Source of the DNA: Clytia hemisphaerica
Lineage: Eukaryota; Cnidaria; Hydrozoa; Leptothecata; Clytiidae
Length of the DNA: 64,000 nucleotides
Reading direction: 5' to 3'
Assembly: GCA_902728285.1 (NCBI GenBank)
Contig: CACVBU010000615.1
Location: 124,001 to 188,000 of the forward strand
The notes under the pieces were generated by a model that had not been told where the DNA came from, did no database searches, and was given only the letters and a program-made list of their open reading frames with translations. Positions 50,812-63,126 of the stretch are shown one piece after another; the stretch's first letter is position 1; the number at the start of each line of letters is the position of its first letter. The translations under genes and the position numbers were made by a program.

Positions 50812-50818
50812 GCCTGAT

Positions 50819-50920
50819 CAGTCAGGAATCGAACAATGGGCCTTTTGTTTTCGCGGCTCTGATGTTGAGACATTCGGGCCCAGTCCACGGGTAGTGGATA
50901 AACAAACAAAATGGCGGCTG
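50819..50920 (+). repeat. Left terminal inverted repeat of the P-like element
   Basis: The outer block AGTCAGGAATCGAACAATGG and the inner block CCCAGTCCACGGGTAGTGG, then AAACAAACAAAATGGCG, match the right terminus. The middle 40 bases are diverged. The inner end contains the ATG of the zinc-finger gene. Confidence 0.85.
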
Positions 50921-52632
50921 CACAAGAGGTTCTTGAGCAGGATTATTATACACTAGACAAAGTTTATGGATTATTGGAGAGTGGTTTTTTCGATACTGGA
51001 AAAGAAGATGATGGTCAAGACCATTTTGATTTAGAAACCATAGGAGTAATGATGGACAATGGTGTTTTTGATGACGTAGACGAAATCAAAAACGAAATAG
51101 AGTCTATGGAATCTGAGGTGACTTTCCCTTTATTTTTATACCAGTATACTTTGCACTTTTGTATCTTGGAAATATAAGACTGTTTTAGGAGGTTGGGTTT
51201 TGTAGTTTGGAAGAAGTACCTATATAATAAAATTCTTACCTAACTTTTCTTACCTAATAGAGGTGAGTATAGGTGGAGGTGGAAAATTATAAAGATCCTT
51301 TTTAAATGTATTTACTTAAGCACTTTATTAGCACAACCCAGTGAGTTTCTTTGAAGAGGGCATGCAATTTTACATAGTATATCATATATTATTAATGAGT
51401 AAGCTTTACTTCAACAGTTTATGGTTTGATTATAGCTTTCTAGTCTATCAAATGAGTCAAGTTTTGCATGTGATGTACAAGGATGTGACAAAGTCTGCAA
51501 GACAAAGGGAGGGATCAAACGACACAAACAGGCAAAACATCCTGACGATGTTTTACTTGAAAAACAACAAATAGAACAACTACAGTCACAACAAGCTGCT
51601 CGTCTCCTTCACCCTCTTGACATCAAGAAAAACATGAAAAAGGCACTGGAAAACATTAAAAGTGATGAAAATTTTCCAGCCACGTTCAGAGAAGGATTCA
51701 ATTTAACAGATGAAATTACAGGTGATCAGGGACGGGCATTTTTCAGAACATTGAAAGACGATATTCTTAAATTTGAAAGAAAAAAGGATCTTGAACTTTT
51801 CTTACAAGTCTTTAAAGAAAAGCTGAATACTCAGAATGACACACTGATGAAAGATAAAGATAATAGCAAGGAATCGAAGAAGCAAAACGAAGAAGATCAA
51901 AGGAAAGAAAAGGAAAGAGAAGAAGATCAAAAATACATCAATGAGCTCAAAAATAAATTTTCAAACATTCAAGCATATCAATTATTCCTATTTGAAGTAG
52001 CTGCACTTTGCCTTGCTACATTACAAGAGCCAAAAGAATCTTCATCACAGGAAACAAATAAAACAAAAGTTGTCTTGGCTAAACGGGAAATCGAGTCTTT
52101 AGAATATTTGACCGGACACGTGTTCCATAAAATTTATCTTAAATTGAGAAAGAATCGTAACTATTGGAAAGTTTCTTTCCAGCAAATGATAGCTTTGATT
52201 TGTGAATTTAAAGTTGAAGCTACAGAGGAGCAAAAGTTCATTCACGCAAAAGATAGAGGAGGATTATGGTATACACGAAAGGAAGCTATTGCTATTTTTC
52301 ACTCTGTTGAATTGATTTTCAGAAATTTCACTAAAAAGAAAAAAATGACAGTTCGTAAAATTGATTACAAATTAATCAAACAAAATTGTGTGAAAAATAT
52401 AGAGGTCAGAATCAATTTTGACAAAGTCTTAAAATCACATGAAAGTGCCATTACAAAAGATCTTGCATACGATTTGCTTGATACTCTTGTTGGTCTTTAT
52501 ATCAGAATCAGAGCACATTCCTATGCTAAAAATGTGAGGGAGAAATTCAAGCTAGCATTAAAATTAAATAGACAGAAATCCCTGAGAGAGGAGCTGAAAA
52601 GGGCAAGCAATGATGACCCATCTACATGCTAG
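50911..52632 (+). CDS. C2H2 zinc-finger protein encoded by the P-like element (two exons)
   Basis: Exon 1 is 50911-51117 and exon 2 is 51436-52632. The intron starts GTGACT and ends TTGATTATAG, and both splice borders are in phase 0. The product has about 467 residues. An acidic N-terminus (residues 1-69) has LESGFFD/MDNGVFDD repeats. A single C2H2 finger follows: C81-x4-C86-x12-H99-x4-H104 with KVCKTKGGIKRH. Next come a glutamine/charged linker and a likely coiled coil (about 205-245). The C-terminal part contains LEYLTGHVFHKIY, AKDRGGLWYTRKE, FHSVELIFRNFT and LVGLYIRIRAHSYAKN. From memory, a YxxGxxxxK...RGGL pattern is common near the C-termini of P/THAP-type and related transposases. I infer a transposition accessory factor, binding DNA by the finger, but no function is shown. 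AATAAA follows at 52845. Confidence 0.8.
51118..51435 (+). other. Intron of the zinc-finger gene
   Basis: GTGACTTTCC at the 5' border and GTTTGATTATAG at the 3' border. Removal joins two phase-0 exons and places the zinc finger just after the junction. Confidence 0.75.
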
Positions 52633-52844
52633 ATAGATATTATTTTGATTATTTGAAGGCAGTTTGTTGACTTCTTGATGTTGATATTTTGATTACATTT
52701 TACACTGTTGTTTAGAGATCATTGTATTCATTCCTAGTATTTAGTCTTTTATCAATTAGAAAATTGCAAAGAAATGTTACTTTTTTAGATACTTTACTTA
52801 ATAGTTTTGAAAAAAATTTGGAAAGTGACTTTTTTTATCCCAGC

Positions 52845-52850
52845 AATAAA
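52845..52850 (+). terminator. Polyadenylation signal of the zinc-finger gene
   Basis: AATAAA 213 bases after the stop codon; the first good match downstream. Confidence 0.55.
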
Positions 52851-54236
52851 ACAGAAAGTGTTTGCATTTTGCTTAAAAACTATTTGTTTTGCTTCTTCGT
52901 TAGAAGGAAAATTAGTTATATTGATATATCGTTAGAAAGAAAATTAGTTATATTGATATATTAATAACTATTACATTTTGTATATTTGATATTTTTTATA
53001 AAGTATTTAGGCAATTACTTTTTTAGTCTGGTTTATGGAAATGCTGACGATTTTTTTGCAAAAATAGAAAAAAATAAAATTCACAGAAATTTATTTCTGC
53101 ACTTCCGACTATGTCTGATCTTCCATGAAATGGACTTTTTTAGAAAACTTCCTTTTGTAAGAGCAGGAAAGGAAGATAAAAGGGTACAGTCATCTCTTTT
53201 TCCCAATATGCTTCCTCTAATGGCGCTCAACACAATTTTCCCGCTGAAAAACTTGCAATCTGTTGGAAATTATGAATATGAAATTGCTTTGTCCTGTTTT
53301 GAAAGTTTTTTCCTTTTTTTAACATTATTAGTATATTATGATAATGCAAAATGACTTTTTTTTAATTATGAAATTTTTTGTGAAGGTGAAGCGTGACGCT
53401 ACAGATCAAATCTGTGTTTTGACTGGACTCACCAACCTTTATGATTATAAGGGTACAGTTTGTTTTTTATTTTTTTAAATTCAAAATACCCTGAATGTGT
53501 TACTGTAGTGTTTTCATCTTACTTTTCTTACATTATTGTTTCTTTAAACTTTTTGCTATTTATTCTAGAAAATGAAAAATAGAACGGTTGGAGCTTCATT
53601 TTTCATCAATGAGAGAATCTACAGATGTTGATTTTTTGTAAGAAAAAATCTTTAATGATTTTGTTTGCTCTATAATATAATTTCTGTCAACAAGTTGCCA
53701 AAGAAATACATAAAGCCCCACTGACAATCATATCATTATTTCACTTTGTATTACTTTTCAGTATTAAGGCAAGATAAAATATTTAAAGTAAAAGAATTTG
53801 AAATTTCCTTAGCCCTGTAAGAGGTAAAAAGCTTTTCAAAGAATTTTATGTAGCAGGGCTAAGTTATCCGAAAATAGCTTTAGATATTTCAAAATGATAG
53901 AAGAAGTCCTCATAACATCAGGATTCAATAATATAAAGTGTGTTGTACCTGTGTTTAGATTATTTTTTGTTTTATTTTTAATCTTAACAAAAAAATAATG
54001 CAGTTTGAACAAATAGTATATATAATATATGTAATAAAACTGTTCTGTTCAAACAAAAATCTGTGAAATATTTATGAAGAACTATATTTTGAGGGACAAA
54101 TTTTCGAACTTTCAGAGAGTAAAATTCAAATATGATTTAAAACTTAAAAAAGAGCAACGAGAACCAAAAAAAATTGGAACCGGAAAATAAACTACATGGG
54201 AAAAAAATCTAAAAAATTTACCGAGACTTTTTAATG
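52851..54236. other. Interior of the P-like element between the two genes
   Basis: A 32-base tandem pair lies at 52901-52962 (TTAGTTATATTGATATAT twice). The plus-strand frames at 52986-53354 and around 53384-53450 (KVKRDATDQICVLTGL) read like protein in places but lack a start, splice borders or a family. They are left unannotated. Confidence 0.4.
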
Positions 54237-54322
54237 AATTCACGGTGAAAAGCTGCAATCTTTCAGTAATTTACGGTGAAAAATTGAAATTTCGCCGTGA
54301 ATTGTTAAAAGATTGCAGCTTT
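54237..54322. repeat. Interleaved inverted repeats between the convergent genes
   Basis: AATTCACGGTGAAA (54237-54250) pairs with TTTCGCCGTGAATT (54290-54303). AAAGCTGCAATCTTTCAGTAATT-type sequence (54249-54271) pairs with its inverse at 54300-54322. The two pairs are in crossing order, so a pseudoknot-like fold or alternative hairpins are possible. Confidence 0.7.
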
Positions 54323-54555
54323 GATTTTTTCCTGTACTAATTGGAAGAAAATGAATCAACATTAGTTTAATTAAAGAAATTATTTTTTCAATTAATTTAA
54401 GAAGACTTTCTGTGTGTAGCATTAAGTAGTCAGCAATTTCTGGTCACTAATCTGTAAGGATTTTGGAAAACTGCTAGTTAAAATGCAAATAATATAACAA
54501 ATAAAATGTAAGAATATAAGAACCTTTGCTTTCATTATCAAATCTACAACTGTTC

Positions 54556-57500
54556 TTATGCAGGACAATTACCACCTTCGATAGGTCTAGGATCTAATTG
54601 ATTTTTTATGATCCGATCGTTTCGAATAGTGTCTCGAGAATTAGGATTGGTTTTACGGCTTCCAATAGCCCTTTGTCGTCCAAAGTAATTTTCAAGATCA
54701 TCTTGACAAAAATTTTCACTTAAAACGTAATCAAATCCATTTCTCAACAAATAAGGAATTATTTCCTGCAATGATTTAATTGAAATCTTGATTCCTTCAT
54801 ATGTTGGTAAAGAAATAAACATATTGTTCCTTTGAGTCTGGGTAAATTCGCCTGGTCTCTTTGCAATATTTTGTTTCCACTCGTCAAGATATGCAATAAA
54901 GGAATTCAGCCAATTAAAACGTACATCATCTTCGCTTTCATATTTTTTCAAGAATGGTTTGATCTTCTTTTTGCTTTGCTGGGTGTCTTTGACGTTAAAA
55001 CAATCAAAGAACTTGTCGAATTGGCGACAAAAGAGAGCTGTTTCTTTTGCTCCTGGTGGACCATATACTTGTAAGCTGACACAAGTACTTTCGCTCAAGA
55101 CACTGGCTGCCAATTTGACATTCATCACTGAGTACGAGTTCAGCATAACGTGTTCTGTCGTAAGATGCGTGACGGATTTTAGGCCATACTCGAGGTCTTC
55201 AAAGAATAAATCCTTTATGTGTTTCCAAAATAGGTAACATTCTAAAAAGTGAAATATAGTTTTTAAAATTTTTATGAGAACAATTTGATAAACACAATGT
55301 CAGGCTAAAAAACACTAAAAAAATTCAAGAACAATTCTGAGCCTGGAATTGGAACTGTCTATTTTTAAGTAAAATAAGGGCTAAATCAATGAAATTAGGG
55401 TACAAACCAAGAAGTACCCCCAAATAGCCTAAATTAAAGTTTACGAGCTATGTTTACGTACCGTTATTCCACATATATCTTCCAGAAATATCGTTTCCTG
55501 ACTTCCATAATGCATTACGTGCTGTCTTGATAAGATGGGGTGGGTCAGCAATAAAATAGATATAACGATCTGGTGCATACAAGTTCTTTGTTCGGTAAGT
55601 TACATCAGTACATTTCTCATCATCAACACCCTGAAAAAGTTGAGTGAGAAAATCATGGTTAAGGACAGTAAATCAGACTATTTGAACTAAAATTAGAGCA
55701 CTCCTCTACGATTTCATAGAAAACTTCATAGATTTACCAAAAAAAGCTTGAGCAACTGTTGTAACCAGTTAGCTAGCAATATAATCTCTCCCCACCAAAA
55801 TCAAATAACCAAAAGACAGGTCCTTAAAATTTACACACTTGTTTTAAAAAGAACTTATAAATTTGACCTAAACAAATGTCTTAAAAAGGGCCAAAGTTAG
55901 AATAATGAAAATTCCAATAAAATAGTTCTTAAAGACGAAAAACAAGTGAAGTGAACTCAAACCTTGTTCATCTTTATGAATTTTCGATTTGTTGAGGCAC
56001 CATCTGAAACAGTACAAATAACTTTCAGCTGGCAGGATATTTCCAAAATTGCAACACATTTCCAAAAGAGCAAGTGAATTTGTGCTGCTGAAGCTCCATC
56101 AGTTGCAAAGTTAGCAAAACTAAACGACAATTTGTTCTTAATGCTTTTCACCAGAAATACCATTACGTGAGAGGCTAACTTTTCCCTATCTGTGATAGTG
56201 CTTTCGTTCATGCTCTCATTGCCAAGATCAAGGAATCCAATCAGTTCACCACTGCTTCGGTCCCATACCAGGTCTTCCTGTACTTTCATCTCGTCAATTA
56301 CAATACTAACATATTTGTCAGCAGAAGAAAAACCAGCTGTCATTTCCGCAAGGTCTTTTGTAATCTGAGGATTAAACCCATGTTCAGGTTTGACATAGTT
56401 ACGATATTGTCTTAAAGTTCTCTGAGAGGGTAACACCAAGACACCGGTGCCATTTTCAAGGTCAAGTTTCAATTGTTTGTATGCTGCAGATGACTTTGCA
56501 CATATATTGAGACAATATTTAATGATTGCCGGGTGGTATCTGAGTTGCTTTTTGTTCGTACAGCGGATATATTTCATTTGCTCAGTCCAAAAAAGTCGCA
56601 TGAAAGGTGTAATGTTCTCTTGGGGAACTCCATCAAAAATTTTCATCAAATCATCACTGAGATCTTCTTGAACATCAACAGAGTTTTTTATGCAGAGCCT
56701 CTTGTAATTGTTTTTGTCAATCTATCGTTTTCAGCTTTCAATTTCTTATTTTCCTGTCTGGTGGCTTTAAGAGTCAACACTACTCGTTCTTTTGATGTCA
56801 CAGACAGAGGAGCAAAGTTTGATGCTGGTGTCTCAGATACTTTCCTTTTCTGACCAATTTCAAAGCGTAGTTTCATTTCAAATTTACTGCATTCTGAACA
56901 TATTTCTTTATTTTTCAACAAAATATGACACTTTTGTGACCTTTTAAATTCATCTTGATGCAATGGATTGCTACCCAGAGTCTCTTCAAATTTAAATTTC
57001 TTTGGAATCACATGGTGAGTAACATGATGGGCTTTCTGAAATTCGACCAAATTGATCCCTGAACATAGAAGAAAAAGCATAGAAATTTTTAGACTTCAAA
57101 TAAGTACTAAATCAAATTTAATAACCTACCATCATTGTATACTTCTCTACATGCCAAGAAAATCTTTTAGAATGACAGTATATAATAATAATAATAGTCT
57201 AGGCCTTTTATGATACCAGTACAAAAAAGTTATTTTGAATTTTATACCTTTACAAAGATGATAGCTTTCCAAAACTTGAATATAATCGGACAAGTAAAGT
57301 AAATGTCATTTAAGGAATCAATTTCTTTCATAATTGGTGATTCCTTTGGCAGCAACCAGCCATAGCAACGTAGATTGATGCTCAAGTCTGTGTTACTGTT
57401 GATGAATATTTGGAAGGCCGGTATGGATAGACTTTCATCCTCCTTGACGACTTCAGTCAGCTGTTCATGATGGGTAATTTTCCAGCCACGAGGGAGCTTC

Positions 57501-58145
57501 AATTTGTCAGCTCTTTTGACAAAATCTTGGAAGTTTTTATATTTCTTATCAACAATACTACCCTGATCATTGGACTGCTGGTACTGATCTCGTTTCTGTA
57601 TTGATGTCGTTGATCGCTGTGGTGTGTCTGCTATGGGTAGTGACTTTTGAGGGAGATTTTGGGTTGGTAGAGGATAAGCTTCAGCTCTGAGTTCTTTTCG
57701 TGAAGGATCTGAGGGAAAAATTGAAATACTTTTATAATATTTATCTTAGGTATTAAAGGTGAAACCTAAAACTGATCATGCACTTGTATGAATTTTCATA
57801 CTTTTGGATTATTTATCGTACTTAGATATTGTTAGACCAACCAAGACATTATATGTTGCATCATAACTTCATTAATATTTGTAGATTTATTCATCTATAC
57901 TTACAATGATACATATCTTCTTCTCTGAAATGTTTTTCACAGATGAAGATTGTGTTTTTTTCAACTTTGTTCTTAAAAACCGCATCAGCAACCCTGTCTT
58001 TTGTAATCGAATTAATCATATCGGATCTCCATTGAGCAAATCGATCATTTTTTGCAGTGGGGAGCCGGAACAATGAAAGACCGTGTTTTCGACATGTACT
58101 ACAACCAAAGATTGCACAGTGGGCCCCATTTCCACGACCAGGCAT
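54556..58145 (-). pseudogene. THAP/P-element transposase, five exons, one frameshift
   Basis: Minus-strand exons: 58145-57905, 57708-57248, 57035-55963, 55630-55462 and 55241-54556. All have GT-AG borders and consistent phases. The protein would have about 876 residues. Exon 1 is a THAP zinc finger (MPGRGNGAHC, CAIFGC, FRLP, CEKHF). Exon 2 contains LPRGWKITHHE. Exon 3 has a coiled coil (ENKKLKAENDRL), then the RNase-H-like catalytic core: LPSQRTLRQYRNY, VIDEMKVQEDLVWD (first Asp) and SDGASTNRKF. Exon 4 has IADPPHLIKTARN (second Asp). Exon 5 ends with SENFCQDDLENYFGRQRAIG, carrying the catalytic Glu, and NPNSRDTIRND. It stops about 40 residues later, without a longer C-terminal domain. Exon 3 changes frame by one base at the T5 run 56711-56715, so it is broken as written. 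If that is a sequence error, the gene is intact. Family: P superfamily, like THAP9. Confidence 0.88.
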
Positions 58146-58663
58146 TTTGAAAGACAATATTCTTCTTTCACAGATACAGTTGATTCACTTTTTATATTCA
58201 CTAGTTATGAAAGAAAATATAAACAAAGTTCAGACTATGTAATATGCTAGCCAACTAGCCATTAATAGTCATATATGAGAAAGTTTACTGTTGAATTTTA
58301 CTTGCAAACAGGTCTCTTCTTAAAAATATTTTCACACTAAGGCAGTCAAACTGTTTTAAAGAAGAGCCCTGGGTTAAATCTCACAAAAAAATGCACCATA
58401 AGCTTTATAAATTAGAGGAAGAAAACATCAAAATGGATCAAAGAACTAATCATCTTCTTTAACTCTAGTTATACTTGACATTGTGACACAAAAACACCTA
58501 ATATCGTTTATTCTTTCTTGATCACCACTTCAAACAGCTTATGAAATGAGTAAAAAACCTTTCCAGACATTCAAAAAAATCAAAACAGATGAATTGAACT
58601 TTCAAACCCAGTTAAACATCCAAAAATACAGACTATATTCTTCCATTTTCCCACTCTTTCCCG

Positions 58664-58793
58664 TCGCCATTTTGGTTTGTTTACAAAATGTACCCACCAC
58701 CCGCGGACTGGGACCGAGTAAAATCGAGATGAATAAGCTAGAACAATGCGCCATTGTTCGATTCCTGACTATGGTAATTTTCTTGTGACTATG
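58664..58793 (-). repeat. Right terminal inverted repeat of the P-like element
   Basis: Reverse complement of the left terminus in its outer (AGTCAGGAATCGAACAATGG) and inner (CCCAGTCCGCGGGTGGTGG) blocks. An ATG at the same inner position (58670) opens a 22-codon frame only. Confidence 0.85.
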
Positions 58794-60172
58794 GCCTGAT
58801 GTTAGAATTATTTTCCCGATCCGAACAATTCAAAATAAAGAGAAATGGACATGAAATTGCTATTTTTGGTACGCTCCGCATGCCTAAAAAGATTAAACAA
58901 CGAAACTCAACTTAACCTCCAAATAGCTCAACGCATTCCACGCATACGCTCTAAATTAACGGAAGGGTCCGGAAGAGCCTCTTTCTGTTTTTATAAAGCT
59001 ATAATCTGAATTTTATTGCAATTGCAATTGCAATTGCTTCCAATGATGGTACATCAAAGTTAGGAAAGCCGCTTGAAGTTTGAATGGATTTATAAAAGAT
59101 TTGAACGAATGAATAAATTTATATGATTAAATCTAGATAAGTCATTACCGAAAGGTTTTCACTCAATCTATCTTTATTACCTTCATGTTGAAAATTTGCG
59201 TTGTTATTTCTACGCGAAAAAAAATCTCATAGTCTTTCCTCAGATGAGTTAAATTAAATGGAAAGCTAAACTGTGGTGTTTAGGGTATGCTTACGCACCT
59301 TCGGAATTCAGGGGAAATGCTCTAATGTGAGCAAAAAAGGACGCACCATACTTCCACCTAGTCTATTTATGAGGAAAGCAAATGACACAAAAATGTATTG
59401 TTTAAATAATTACTATATTTGAAGCCAATGCAAAATATGAAAAATATTCAAAACTTATAAAAGTGTTCTGCAACAAATCTGATATGAAAGTTTCATTAGA
59501 TTTCAAGGATTTCAATATTCAAAAACCAAACATAGAATAAAATATTTTGACGGTTTTTGGAAACCTTTTACAGAAAGTAAAGATTAATCGAAACGCGAAA
59601 TAGATTTTTTCCGGTGGCACTTAAGCCTTCCTCCAATTTCTTCTTTTTTTAATTCAAAACTTTTATAAGATTTCACCAAAGCTTGTTTAGCTTGAGAGCT
59701 TTTTTCATACATAGAAAACGGTTTTTGCTCCTTAAAAAAGTCAAGTGGTCAGCAATGACCAAATGTCCAGGACTTGGTATTTCAATCGCAATTGAACGAG
59801 TTTTCTGCATCTTTAAGAGTTAATGTTTTTCATAAACCAGTGGTTGACCGAACACTAATGTTTACAGTTGAGGCTCTCTCATTCGATTTTCGAGGGGGAT
59901 TGGGTCGGAGCGTATCCAGTAGTAGAGCGTCATATAAAAGAATCTCTTGTTGACGGCGACTTTCAATATTATCAAATCATGGAGCTTATCAAATAGTAGA
60001 GCGTTGTTTATGAGAGTTTCTTGTTGATCACAACTTTCAATATTATCGAATAATGGAGCGTATCGAATAGTAACAGGACGTCGAATTAAAGAGCGTCAAC
60101 TGTAGTTGTGTAGCGAGTGTTAATTTCATTCCAATTCACAATGCAAACAATTAGCCATCTTCACAACCACCA
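58794..60172. other. Spacer between the P-like element and GPD1
   Basis: No gene supported. A short (TTGCAA)n run occurs at 59016-59037. A degenerate unit with 'GAGCGT...TCTTGTTGA' recurs about 65 bases apart at 59920-60090. The 3' UTR of GPD1 should lie here. Confidence 0.4.
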
Positions 60173-63126
60173 TCAATAATGATCCCGTAAAGTATCAATC
60201 AAATGAGAAGGATCTTCATTTTCGTAACAAATACGATACACACTGGTGAAAAGTGGAAACCTAAGAAAAGAAAACACAAAACGAAAGTAAAAAAGACACA
60301 CTGGTGAAAAGTGGAAACCTATTTAAACAAGCTAGATGCTGAATGGACCTACCTGATGATGAAAGTTAGATAGCAATGCGAGGAGAAAAAAATCAGTCAG
60401 AAAATATAGCGTTTAGCGAAAATGCATAACGCAATAAATTCATCATTGATTGTTGATAAGGGGAGAGGGAAGGGTTGTAGGGAAAAATAAATAGAAAGTT
60501 CTGGTCGCAAAAATCAGTTTTATTGACAATTGAATCATGCTTGATGGTGAGCATTGATATCAATAATGTTTTTGTGTCAAAAACATAGAAATACAAGGAA
60601 AAAAATCTAATGAAAATCTGCCAAAACGGCAACAAAAATTTCTCAAAAATCGAACTCAGCCATGTTTTGAGCATTGCGAATACGCATCTTTCTGCAAAAA
60701 AATCAGAAAAAAATTCATGAAAATGTAAAAAAACCGGTTTTTCCGGCATATTTCCAGCATTTTCGGCCGGAAAAAATGTTTTTTCGAAAATCGGGCTCCG
60801 TCACATTTTAGGTATTGTCATATTGCATCAGTGTGAAAAATTTCATAAAAAAATATAAAGTACAGCTCGAGAAATTCAAGAAATACTGTCTTTCCGTCGA
60901 AAATAGGTTGTTCCGGCGATTTTTAAATAGTTCCGGCTTCAAAAATAAATTTTATTGAAAATTGAAACATGCTTGATGGTGGGCATTCCTATTAATAATG
61001 TTTTTGAATGAAAAAATAACCATTTATAAGGAAAAAGCCCAATGAAAATCCAGAAAAACGGCGATTTCCGGCATATTTCCGGCATTATCGGCCGGAAAAG
61101 AATTTTTCTCAAAAATCAAACTCTGTCATGTTTTGGGCATTGCTAATACGCATCTTTGTGCCAAAAATCAGAAAAAACTAATGAGCCAATCTCGAGAAAA
61201 GCTGGTAACAGACGGACGGACGGACGGACGGACGGACGGACGGACGGACGGACGGACAAAGTATAATTTATAGGACCTCCAGGTAGGTCCAAAAAACAGA
61301 TACTTCAGCCAAATATGGATAGAAAATAATACAAACACTTTATAGTGTACCGTCGTACATCGGTTTACCATTTAAATGCTTCAAAATCAGCCGCTCGAAA
61401 ATACCTTTCTAGCGAGATATTACTTATTTTTTTAACGAAGACCTTTCTTTCCTTTAAGAAAAATTTAGTAATCAAAATCAAAATTAGAATTCGTCTAAAT
61501 TTATCAAATTCAATAGTCAACATACATTAAAGAGGGCGTGTTAGATTAGAGAAATGACGCGGTAGTTAGTTTTGCCGACGAATTATTTACTAGATAACGT
61601 CGTTTTTTCAGAGGAATTAAGTAGTGTTTTCACCACAATGAACTGAGTCATTTCTGCATTTGTTTTACTTTCTGTTGCAACCCTTTGCGTTAAACCCAAA
61701 ATTTAGCGCTTTTCAATTTTAAACGAAACAATGTTCAAAGTAACCTAGACTGGATAGTAACCAAAAATTATTTGGCAGTTAATATTCGCCGGCAAAAATC
61801 CAATTTTCTACTGATAAGTGTAAGTGTGAGTTTCCCACGTTATGCAATTTTATGTCACTTGAGAAGTTAAAGAATCAATATGAACTTACTGTTTTTCGAT
61901 GTTCTTTTCTTTGAGTAATTGGTAGACTTGAAATGCAGTATGAGGTCCTTGCAATTTCTGTCCGTTCAACATTTCAGCTTCTAATTCTTCTAAGGACTAG
62001 ACGAAAATATTTTTTATATAATATTTTTTAAGTTTCCGAAATCGATTCAAGAAATAAGTACATAACAGCCTTAAGTCCTAAATTTTAGTGCAAATTTTAT
62101 TTTCTATGAAACATTGACATAAAATGTGTAGCCTTAAGTCCAACACATCTCAACCTTTAAAGTCAATTATCTCAAAATCGAAAAAATGGACTTAAGGCTG
62201 TCTTGAATTGACACGGCGATATAGACATTATTCTAGAAAACATGATGACATGATGTGAGCTACTTTGTATCTAATAAAAAAAAATTCTATTTGTATTCCA
62301 GTGGAGTCTATTTAACTCGAATGTTTCCTCAACAACTTTTATGGTCCCTTCAGTTAACAATGCCTTAAAAATCTTACTCCATAAGCAAATTCGAGTTATG
62401 GAGACGCCACTGTAATACGAGGCTGGCTAAGTTGCCTGGATGAAGTGGGTTGAGTGGGTGCATGGGTCAGTTTTCTTCCTACTTAAAAGTCATCTAAGTA
62501 AAATACCCACGCAAAACTGTTAAATTTCACATATTTGTAAAATTGTATCAGTTACTTTAAGATACTGTGATGACGTGTATTTACCTTTCCGGTGCGTACG
62601 AACGCTTCCGCTACTTTTCTGTTCCGGCCACCATAACAAGTAGTTATAAGATCAGCCAATCCACATGATTCGAAAAAAGTTGTTTCCTCGACTCCGGAAA
62701 AGAAATGTTTAGCGAATAGCCGCATTTCTATCAAACCCAATCGAATGACAGCAGCTTTGGTGTTGTCTCCAAATCTAAAAGGGAAGTTCATTTAATTCGG
62801 TTTATGTTTGGGTTCAACTATTGTTCAAACCAGTGTTTGATCAAAAATCTTAAAAAGCTTAGGACTTGGTTATAGCTTGTTAGTAACGTTTCAAGGATAA
62901 ATTTTAAATTATGATAGGAGATAAAACAACCAAAATCTGGTGATTTTTCACACTTTTTACATTCTGCTATGTCCCGTTATATAACATTTTAGCTTGCTTT
63001 AAAGGCATAAATCACTGAAAGATCCGAAAAGAGAATACGAATCTGATCAAGCTACCTATAAAAACACATTTTGAAGATTTCTTACTCTAAAGCATCGATG
63101 ATTCCAGCGCCCACAGCTACCGCATT
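60173..63126 (-). CDS. GPD1: Cytosolic glycerol-3-phosphate dehydrogenase, C-terminal exons
   Basis: NAD-dependent enzyme interconverting dihydroxyacetone phosphate and glycerol-3-phosphate, linking glycolysis, lipid synthesis and NADH shuttling. Minus-strand exons with GT-AG borders and matching phases: 63126-63086 (41 bases, [13 protein letters not shown]), 62774-62585 ([41 protein letters not shown]), 61996-61890 ([20 protein letters not shown]) and 60260-60173 ([18 protein letters not shown], ending LRDHY). [12 protein letters not shown] and [11 protein letters not shown] are signature substrate/NAD-binding segments of the family. The piece covers about 128 residues. The N-terminal Rossmann domain must lie beyond the window, since no earlier exon was found up to 64000. 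The introns carry two related MITEs. TGA is at 60173-60175. Confidence 0.92.
60237..60321. repeat. Local duplication of the GPD1 last-exon acceptor
   Basis: ACACTGGTGAAAAGTGGAAA followed by CCT occurs at 60239-60261 (the 5' end of the last exon) and again at 60299-60321. The outer copy is preceded on the minus strand by AAATAG, so a second acceptor may exist. Confidence 0.75.
60344..61291. mobile_element. TIR-bounded repeat region with a diverged internal duplication
   Basis: TGGACCTACCTG at the left and CAGGTAGGTCCA at the right are inverted. Two units about 432 bases apart share TTTATTGANAATTGAANCAT followed by GCTTGATGGTG, and GCATTGCNAATACGCATCTTT. The same terminal motif occurs at 6111 and near 35922. 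It lies in the last intron of GPD1. The TIR is short, so the element boundary is tentative. Confidence 0.55.
61211..61257 (+). repeat. (GACG)n microsatellite
   Basis: About 11 uninterrupted GACG units at the right side of the preceding element. It forces a repeated RPSV frame on the minus strand. Confidence 0.95.
62299..62412. mobile_element. Tigger/pogo-like MITE in a GPD1 intron, copy 1
   Basis: The left CAGTGGAGTCTATTTAACTC and the right GAGTTATGGAGACGCCACTG are inverted. TA follows the right end. It shares ACTTTTATGGT...CAGTTAACAATGC with the copy at 63143-63275. Confidence 0.7.

Follow-up and report, generated by a model that had tools for sequence, protein, structure and literature searches.

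The P transposase combines, according to a review (PMC7776569), a THAP domain, a coiled coil, a helix-turn-helix (HTH), an RNase H domain with a GTP-binding insertion and an all-helical C-terminal domain (CTD), the last of which touches both transposon DNA and target DNA. The CTD and the catalytic domain stand in one chain in Drosophila P and in Pdre2, whereas in the element reported here the predicted CTD lies on a second, convergent gene together with a zinc finger. Two genes placed tail to tail are described in PMC7481187 for ProtoRAG, in whose ends YY1 binds GCCATCTTG. The element was found in a window of 64,000 nucleotides (C431:124001-188000) of the Clytia hemisphaerica assembly (417 Mb, 951 contigs); positions below are those of the window (Table 1). 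We estimate a probability of about 0.77 that it is a P-superfamily transposon moving by cut and paste, with its transposase divided between two convergent genes.

Gene 1, on the minus strand, comprises five exons, of which the second ends at about 57250. Pfam analysis of its product gave matches to THAP (PF05485, E 1.7e-6, above the cut-off), TNP-like_RNaseH_N (PF21787, E 1.2e-27) and TNP-like_GBD (PF21788, E 2.4e-12), with the HTH match (PF12017, E 0.031, 15.1 bits) under its cut-off of 23. The family profile matches the Drosophila P transposase chain 6p5a_A with an E value of 1.6e-23, and 207 relatives of gene 1 were found, with Hydra, Rhopilema and Holothuria represented among the best 120; no relative was confirmed in viral contigs and none was found among phage records. 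Compared with a UniRef record of Clytia, P0007, and with the family profile, the frame in the window is broken at two places, near the end of exon 2 and near 56700 in exon 3, and the window copy is therefore judged unlikely to have the capacity for a full transposase.

The Drosophila chain (DmTNP) is 751 amino acids (aa) long. Its third catalytic acid is E531. In the window, the stop codon of gene 1 follows shortly after QDDLENYFG. A corresponding QDxxExx(F/Y)G motif is present in 107 of the best 120 of the 207 relatives, and the residues that follow it in these 107 number from 1 to 134, with a median of 61. Searching the same 120 with the gene 2 profile returned no score better than E 0.28, and no good CTD match lay on the gene 1 strand in the seven copies scanned. 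Since good CTD matches occur only on the gene 2 strand of these copies and the gene 1 relatives end soon after the third acid, the domain absent from gene 1 appears to be the domain present in gene 2.

Gene 2 is unbroken in the window, with no stop, and the product of its two exons is letter for letter the 467-aa NCBI protein of Clytia hemisphaerica P0001, which is annotated there as ‘uncharacterized’. An acidic N-terminus, a single C2H2 zinc finger, a helical linker and a predicted P-type CTD succeed one another in the protein. With the predicted structure as query, the P transposase chain 6p5a_B ranked first in both structure searches, well separated from the second-ranked entry and with almost the entire chain in the alignment, suggesting that gene 2 carries the CTD fold of 6p5a_B. 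It is improbable in our view that gene 2 is instead a target-site or anti-silencing factor sharing a helical fold with the P CTD by coincidence, given that ranking and the fact that a scan of the 417-Mb genome with PF12596 picks out the gene 2 family alone; such a coincidence could nevertheless draw on the middling Z, which is common among helical domains, on the best PF12596 match to the family, which spans about 34 residues, and on the searches of PDB sequences from the zinc-finger family, among whose matches the P transposase chain did not appear. One gene 2 relative lies about at the PF12596 cut-off (22.1 of 22.6, and 22.5-23 bits in separate runs) and P0001 is unmatched; Foldseek without a second aligner yielded no match to P0001 significant at E 0.001 (0 of 122), and NCBIfam gave nothing useful for the family. 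A precomputed Pfam label, PF22824, attached to P0001, P0003, P0126 and P0127, was not reproduced by hmmscan even at E 10.

We also considered that gene 2 of a two-gene P element might encode the element's own regulator or repressor, dispensable for catalysis, whose CTD would dock on transposition complexes or ends while the zinc finger binds DNA. The acidic N-terminus and the predicted DNA-binding finger would suit this role, and Drosophila P is described in PMC7776569 as making a truncated repressor. That repressor, however, is built the opposite way to gene 2, with the THAP end retained and the C-terminal third missing (PMC7776569), and gene 1 of the clade shows no CTD of its own, so a purely repressing CTD would leave the enzyme without one. 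We therefore regard a regulator as unlikely.

The ends of the element match perfectly over 20 nucleotides as an inverted repeat (50820-50839 and 58751-58770), followed inward by an imperfect inverted match of about 100 bp that reaches AAACAAA.CAAAATGGCG. The full repeat, CATAGTCACAAGAAAATTACCATAGTCAGGAATCGAACAATGG, is 43 bp long, as revealed by another copy, C768, in comparison with which the left end in the window has lost about 22 outer nucleotides. The target site duplication is 7 bp at three insertions, namely GCCTGAT in the window, GTTTATA at C768 and ATTGATG at a relative, C792; at the latter two the eighth base beyond the right end equals the first base of the element, so 8 bp would be possible there, and the window shows 7. 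No duplication was found at the C760 copy and none that was clear at the C458 relative. The initial annotation had described inverted termini over 50819-58793, a 7-bp flanking repeat and a separate two-exon C2H2 gene whose 3' end faces that of the transposase, all of which were recovered; its five-exon THAP transposase holds as to the exons and the THAP, RNase H and GTP-binding domains, but with a frame broken twice.

As a separate observation, the terminal motif CATAGTyA recurs 20 bp inward in the window family (right end of the window, and C768) or 19 bp inward in C458; the outer unit is roughly what the shortened left end has lost, and its role is perhaps tied to staggered cutting. An imperfect tandem repeat with a 33-nt hairpin lies between the 3' ends of both genes (54230-54322), in the C768 copy too. 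Kolobok, a candidate prompted by the THAP domain, was ruled out by the three target sites, which are not TTAA, and by the domains.

Table 1 Features of the two-gene element in the window
Feature	Position	Strand	Basis
Target site duplication, left copy, GCCTGAT	50812..50818	.	Sequence; own 7-bp duplications at two other insertions
Left terminal region, shortened inverted repeat; inner match CCCAGTCC.CGGGT.GTGG; AAACAAACAAAATGGCG at start codon	50819..50931	+	
Zinc-finger gene, coding exon 1, 69 aa, acidic	50911..51117	+	Translation of exons 1 and 2 identical to P0001
Zinc-finger gene, coding exon 2, C2H2 finger, helical middle, predicted P-transposase CTD (residues 281-443)	51436..52632	+	
Transposase exon 5, GTP-binding insertion domain, QDDLENYFG with third catalytic acid, stop 54556-54558	54556..55241	-	
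Transposase exon 4	55462..55630	-	
Transposase exon 3, HTH region and N part of RNase H, frame broken near 56700	55963..57058	-	
Transposase exon 2, frame broken near 3' end	57250..57708	-	Comparison with P0007 and family profile
Transposase exon 1, THAP domain	57905..58145	-	Pfam THAP, E 1.7e-6
Right terminal region, intact 43-bp inverted repeat (58751-58793), inner part with CAAAATGGCG	58665..58793	-	
Target site duplication, right copy, GCCTGAT	58794..58800	.	Sequence

Copies in the genome were counted through left ends and genes only. The left end matches four loci at 99-100% identity and two more weakly, and in three of the four (the window, C768 and C760) both genes lie between both ends; the fourth, C617, retains the left end and the zinc-finger gene and stops after gene 2. 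C768 is structurally complete (7976 bp, with both genes, 99.07% identity over window positions 50820-58794, and the 43-bp repeat at each end), and its gene 1, judged by the family profile, likewise shifts frame. C760 retains the two genes and the two ends, contains a nested insert of 820 bp and has a broken gene 2. Among the more distant relatives, C458 has a gene 2 that is about 44% identical and ends of 127 bp homologous to those of the window (CATAGTTATAAGAGAATTCCATAGTTAGGAAGCGAACAATAG...), and C792 (6146 bp, perfect 42-bp ends) carries a transposase that, without a change of frame, matches positions 1-890 of the 892 in the profile, with 882 codons free of stops, faced by a gene 2 that starts at an ATG and runs for 413 codons in a single frame.

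Some details of these loci are recorded in their own right. The C760 insert has ends CAGGGGGGGGTCAAGCAG and CTGCTTGACCCCCCCCTG with the 7-bp repeat CTGCCAA on each side and may be a non-autonomous member of the same superfamily. C760 and C768 have 2.86 kb of left flank in common and differ in their right flanks, with a scaffold gap just past the shared flank; candidate causes of the shared left and different right flanks are segmental duplication, recombination between copies and misassembly. Repeat sequence at window positions 60325-61200 shows 78-88% similarity to stretches that lie beyond the broken C617 copy, on its downstream side.

Genome-wide, the gene 2 protein gave 107 matches forming 75 loci, with identity down to 27%, and P0006, a Clytia transposase 64% identical to that of the window, gave at least 71 matches at no fewer than 45 loci, with 51 of 563 candidates scored. 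Counting as a pair any gene 2 locus with a transposase locus within 10 kb, 31 of the 75 gene 2 loci are paired, and all 31 pairs are convergent, where random placement expects 0.18 pairs. (The 31 zinc-finger loci correspond to 30 transposase loci, two zinc-finger loci on C432 sharing one transposase; a convergent pair on C781, 12.5 kb apart, was left out.) Distant families of the Clytia genome have kept the pairing and the convergent arrangement, and both genes sit within one pair of ends in several copies. Loci without a partner within 10 kb, 44 of 75 for the zinc-finger gene and 15 of 45 for the transposase, are what one might expect if the genes were neighbours by chance, if a host gene had been captured or if two elements were nested. 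We consider such explanations extremely improbable in the face of 31 convergent pairs out of 31 and of the fact that, in the window, C768 and C792, a single pair of ends with matching duplications surrounds both genes. A host gene or chance neighbours were ruled out by copy number and pairing.

The dedicated partner protein that the initial annotation proposed is supported by these results, although it is better described as a zinc finger joined to the CTD that the transposase lacks. Further two-gene copies with 8-bp duplications had been anticipated; the copies exist (C768, and the same layout in distant families), but with duplications of 7 bp. Neither a single-copy host zinc-finger gene in the Clytia genome nor termini that never enclose this gene, the outcomes named there as refuting, were found, the gene being present at all four left-end loci, in three of them with the transposase gene and between both ends.

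Substitution rates in gene 2 were compared for pairs of frames with synonymous divergence (dS) between 0.05 and 1.6, the L046 row being excluded. C628 against C680/C662 gave a nonsynonymous divergence (dN) of 0.12 and a dS of 1.08 over 349 codons, a ratio of 0.11 that counts as one independent comparison, L032 and L034 being 98.65% identical. Four younger pairs have ratios from 0.64 to 0.84. On that one independent comparison, these values are as would be expected for a protein that is needed while elements move and decays after insertion.

A YY1-like motif, AAnATGGCG, is found at a distance of 111-121 bp from each end of C768 and of C458, and likewise from the right end in the window, against a background of three occurrences in the 55.7 kb of the window outside the element. 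In C792 and in the window the motif spans the gene 2 start codon, and the ATG at the site in C458 opens just 21 codons. CAAGATGGC, the reverse complement of the ProtoRAG YY1 site, is present in the left end of C768 and in both ends of C458. The ends of C458 also contain a perfect 20-bp palindrome, GAACAATAGCGCTATTGTTC, which is near-perfect in the right end of the window element and present by half in the left.

Beyond a transposase split over two genes, we lean, with less assurance, towards an obligate two-subunit transposase in an animal P clade, whose catalytic chain would have lost the CTD that the zinc-finger protein supplies in trans. Gene 1 would make the THAP domain, the HTH region and the RNase H domain with its GTP-binding insertion, ending soon after the third catalytic acid, and gene 2 would make the remainder from acidic N-terminus to CTD. 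Both proteins may join one synaptic complex, with the THAP domain and the zinc finger both binding the ends and the finger serving as a second sequence-specific contact, for instance with the palindrome inside the ends or with target DNA. Cutting would fall to the catalytic chain, and the CTD, acting in trans, would steer the cut strand and the target in the way it does in cis in Drosophila. Each end may drive the adjacent gene, AAnATGGCG helping the end to serve as a promoter. Two observations weigh slightly against this scheme: gene 2 of C768 contains one internal stop, and in C792 AAnATGGCG is found 95 bp from the left end with none at the right end.

The P element is a model transposon in which the role of the CTD is hard to part from catalysis, both being in one chain. 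With the CTD apparently a separate protein here, its roles in end pairing, target capture and regulation become testable by omission. Annotation that expects a P element to have one gene would overlook half of each such element and label the rest uncharacterized, as with P0001.

Judged by its transposase domains and ends, the element belongs to the P superfamily, sharing with Drosophila P and zebrafish Pdre2/THAP9 the THAP domain, the RNase H domain with a GTP-binding insertion and, as predicted here, the CTD fold. Its ends begin with CAT, as do those of Pdre2. Drosophila P ends likewise begin with CAT. A second, DNA-binding protein is also carried by the eukaryotic transposons PIF/Harbinger, En/Spm and MuDR, whose transposases are unrelated to the P type; to our knowledge, that protein is not a detached transposase domain in any of them. 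Because it has two genes, a CTD apparently outside the catalytic chain and 7-bp duplications, the element is not a canonical one-chain P element; the duplications of Drosophila P and Pdre2 are 8 bp. Galileo, a Drosophila member of the P superfamily, mostly has 7-bp duplications, as here, but very long ends, and no second gene was seen in the parts of its descriptions covered. Kolobok transposases also bear THAP domains, whereas their TTAA target sites and other terminal letters differ from the 7-bp duplications and CAT ends found here (further sources consulted: PMC4168063, PMC10983969, PMC8230255, PMC6004289 and PMC4411706). No description of a two-gene or split P element was found in the literature searched by title and abstract, a partial coverage that is no proof of absence. 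With ProtoRAG/TransibVDJ (RAG1-like and RAG2-like genes) the element shares two tail-to-tail genes between inverted ends and a YY1-like site in the ends, but those elements have a Transib-type transposase, 5-bp duplications and a RAG2-like partner, and the resemblance is one of likeness, not of kinship. An obligate two-subunit P transposase would mean that a heteromeric transposase arose in eukaryotes independently of RAG1/RAG2, its genes arranged in the same way and its ends holding a YY1 site of the same type. Beside the RAG transposon, this is a second case of a tail-to-tail two-gene DNA transposon, and it bears on how transposase subunits are gained or split.
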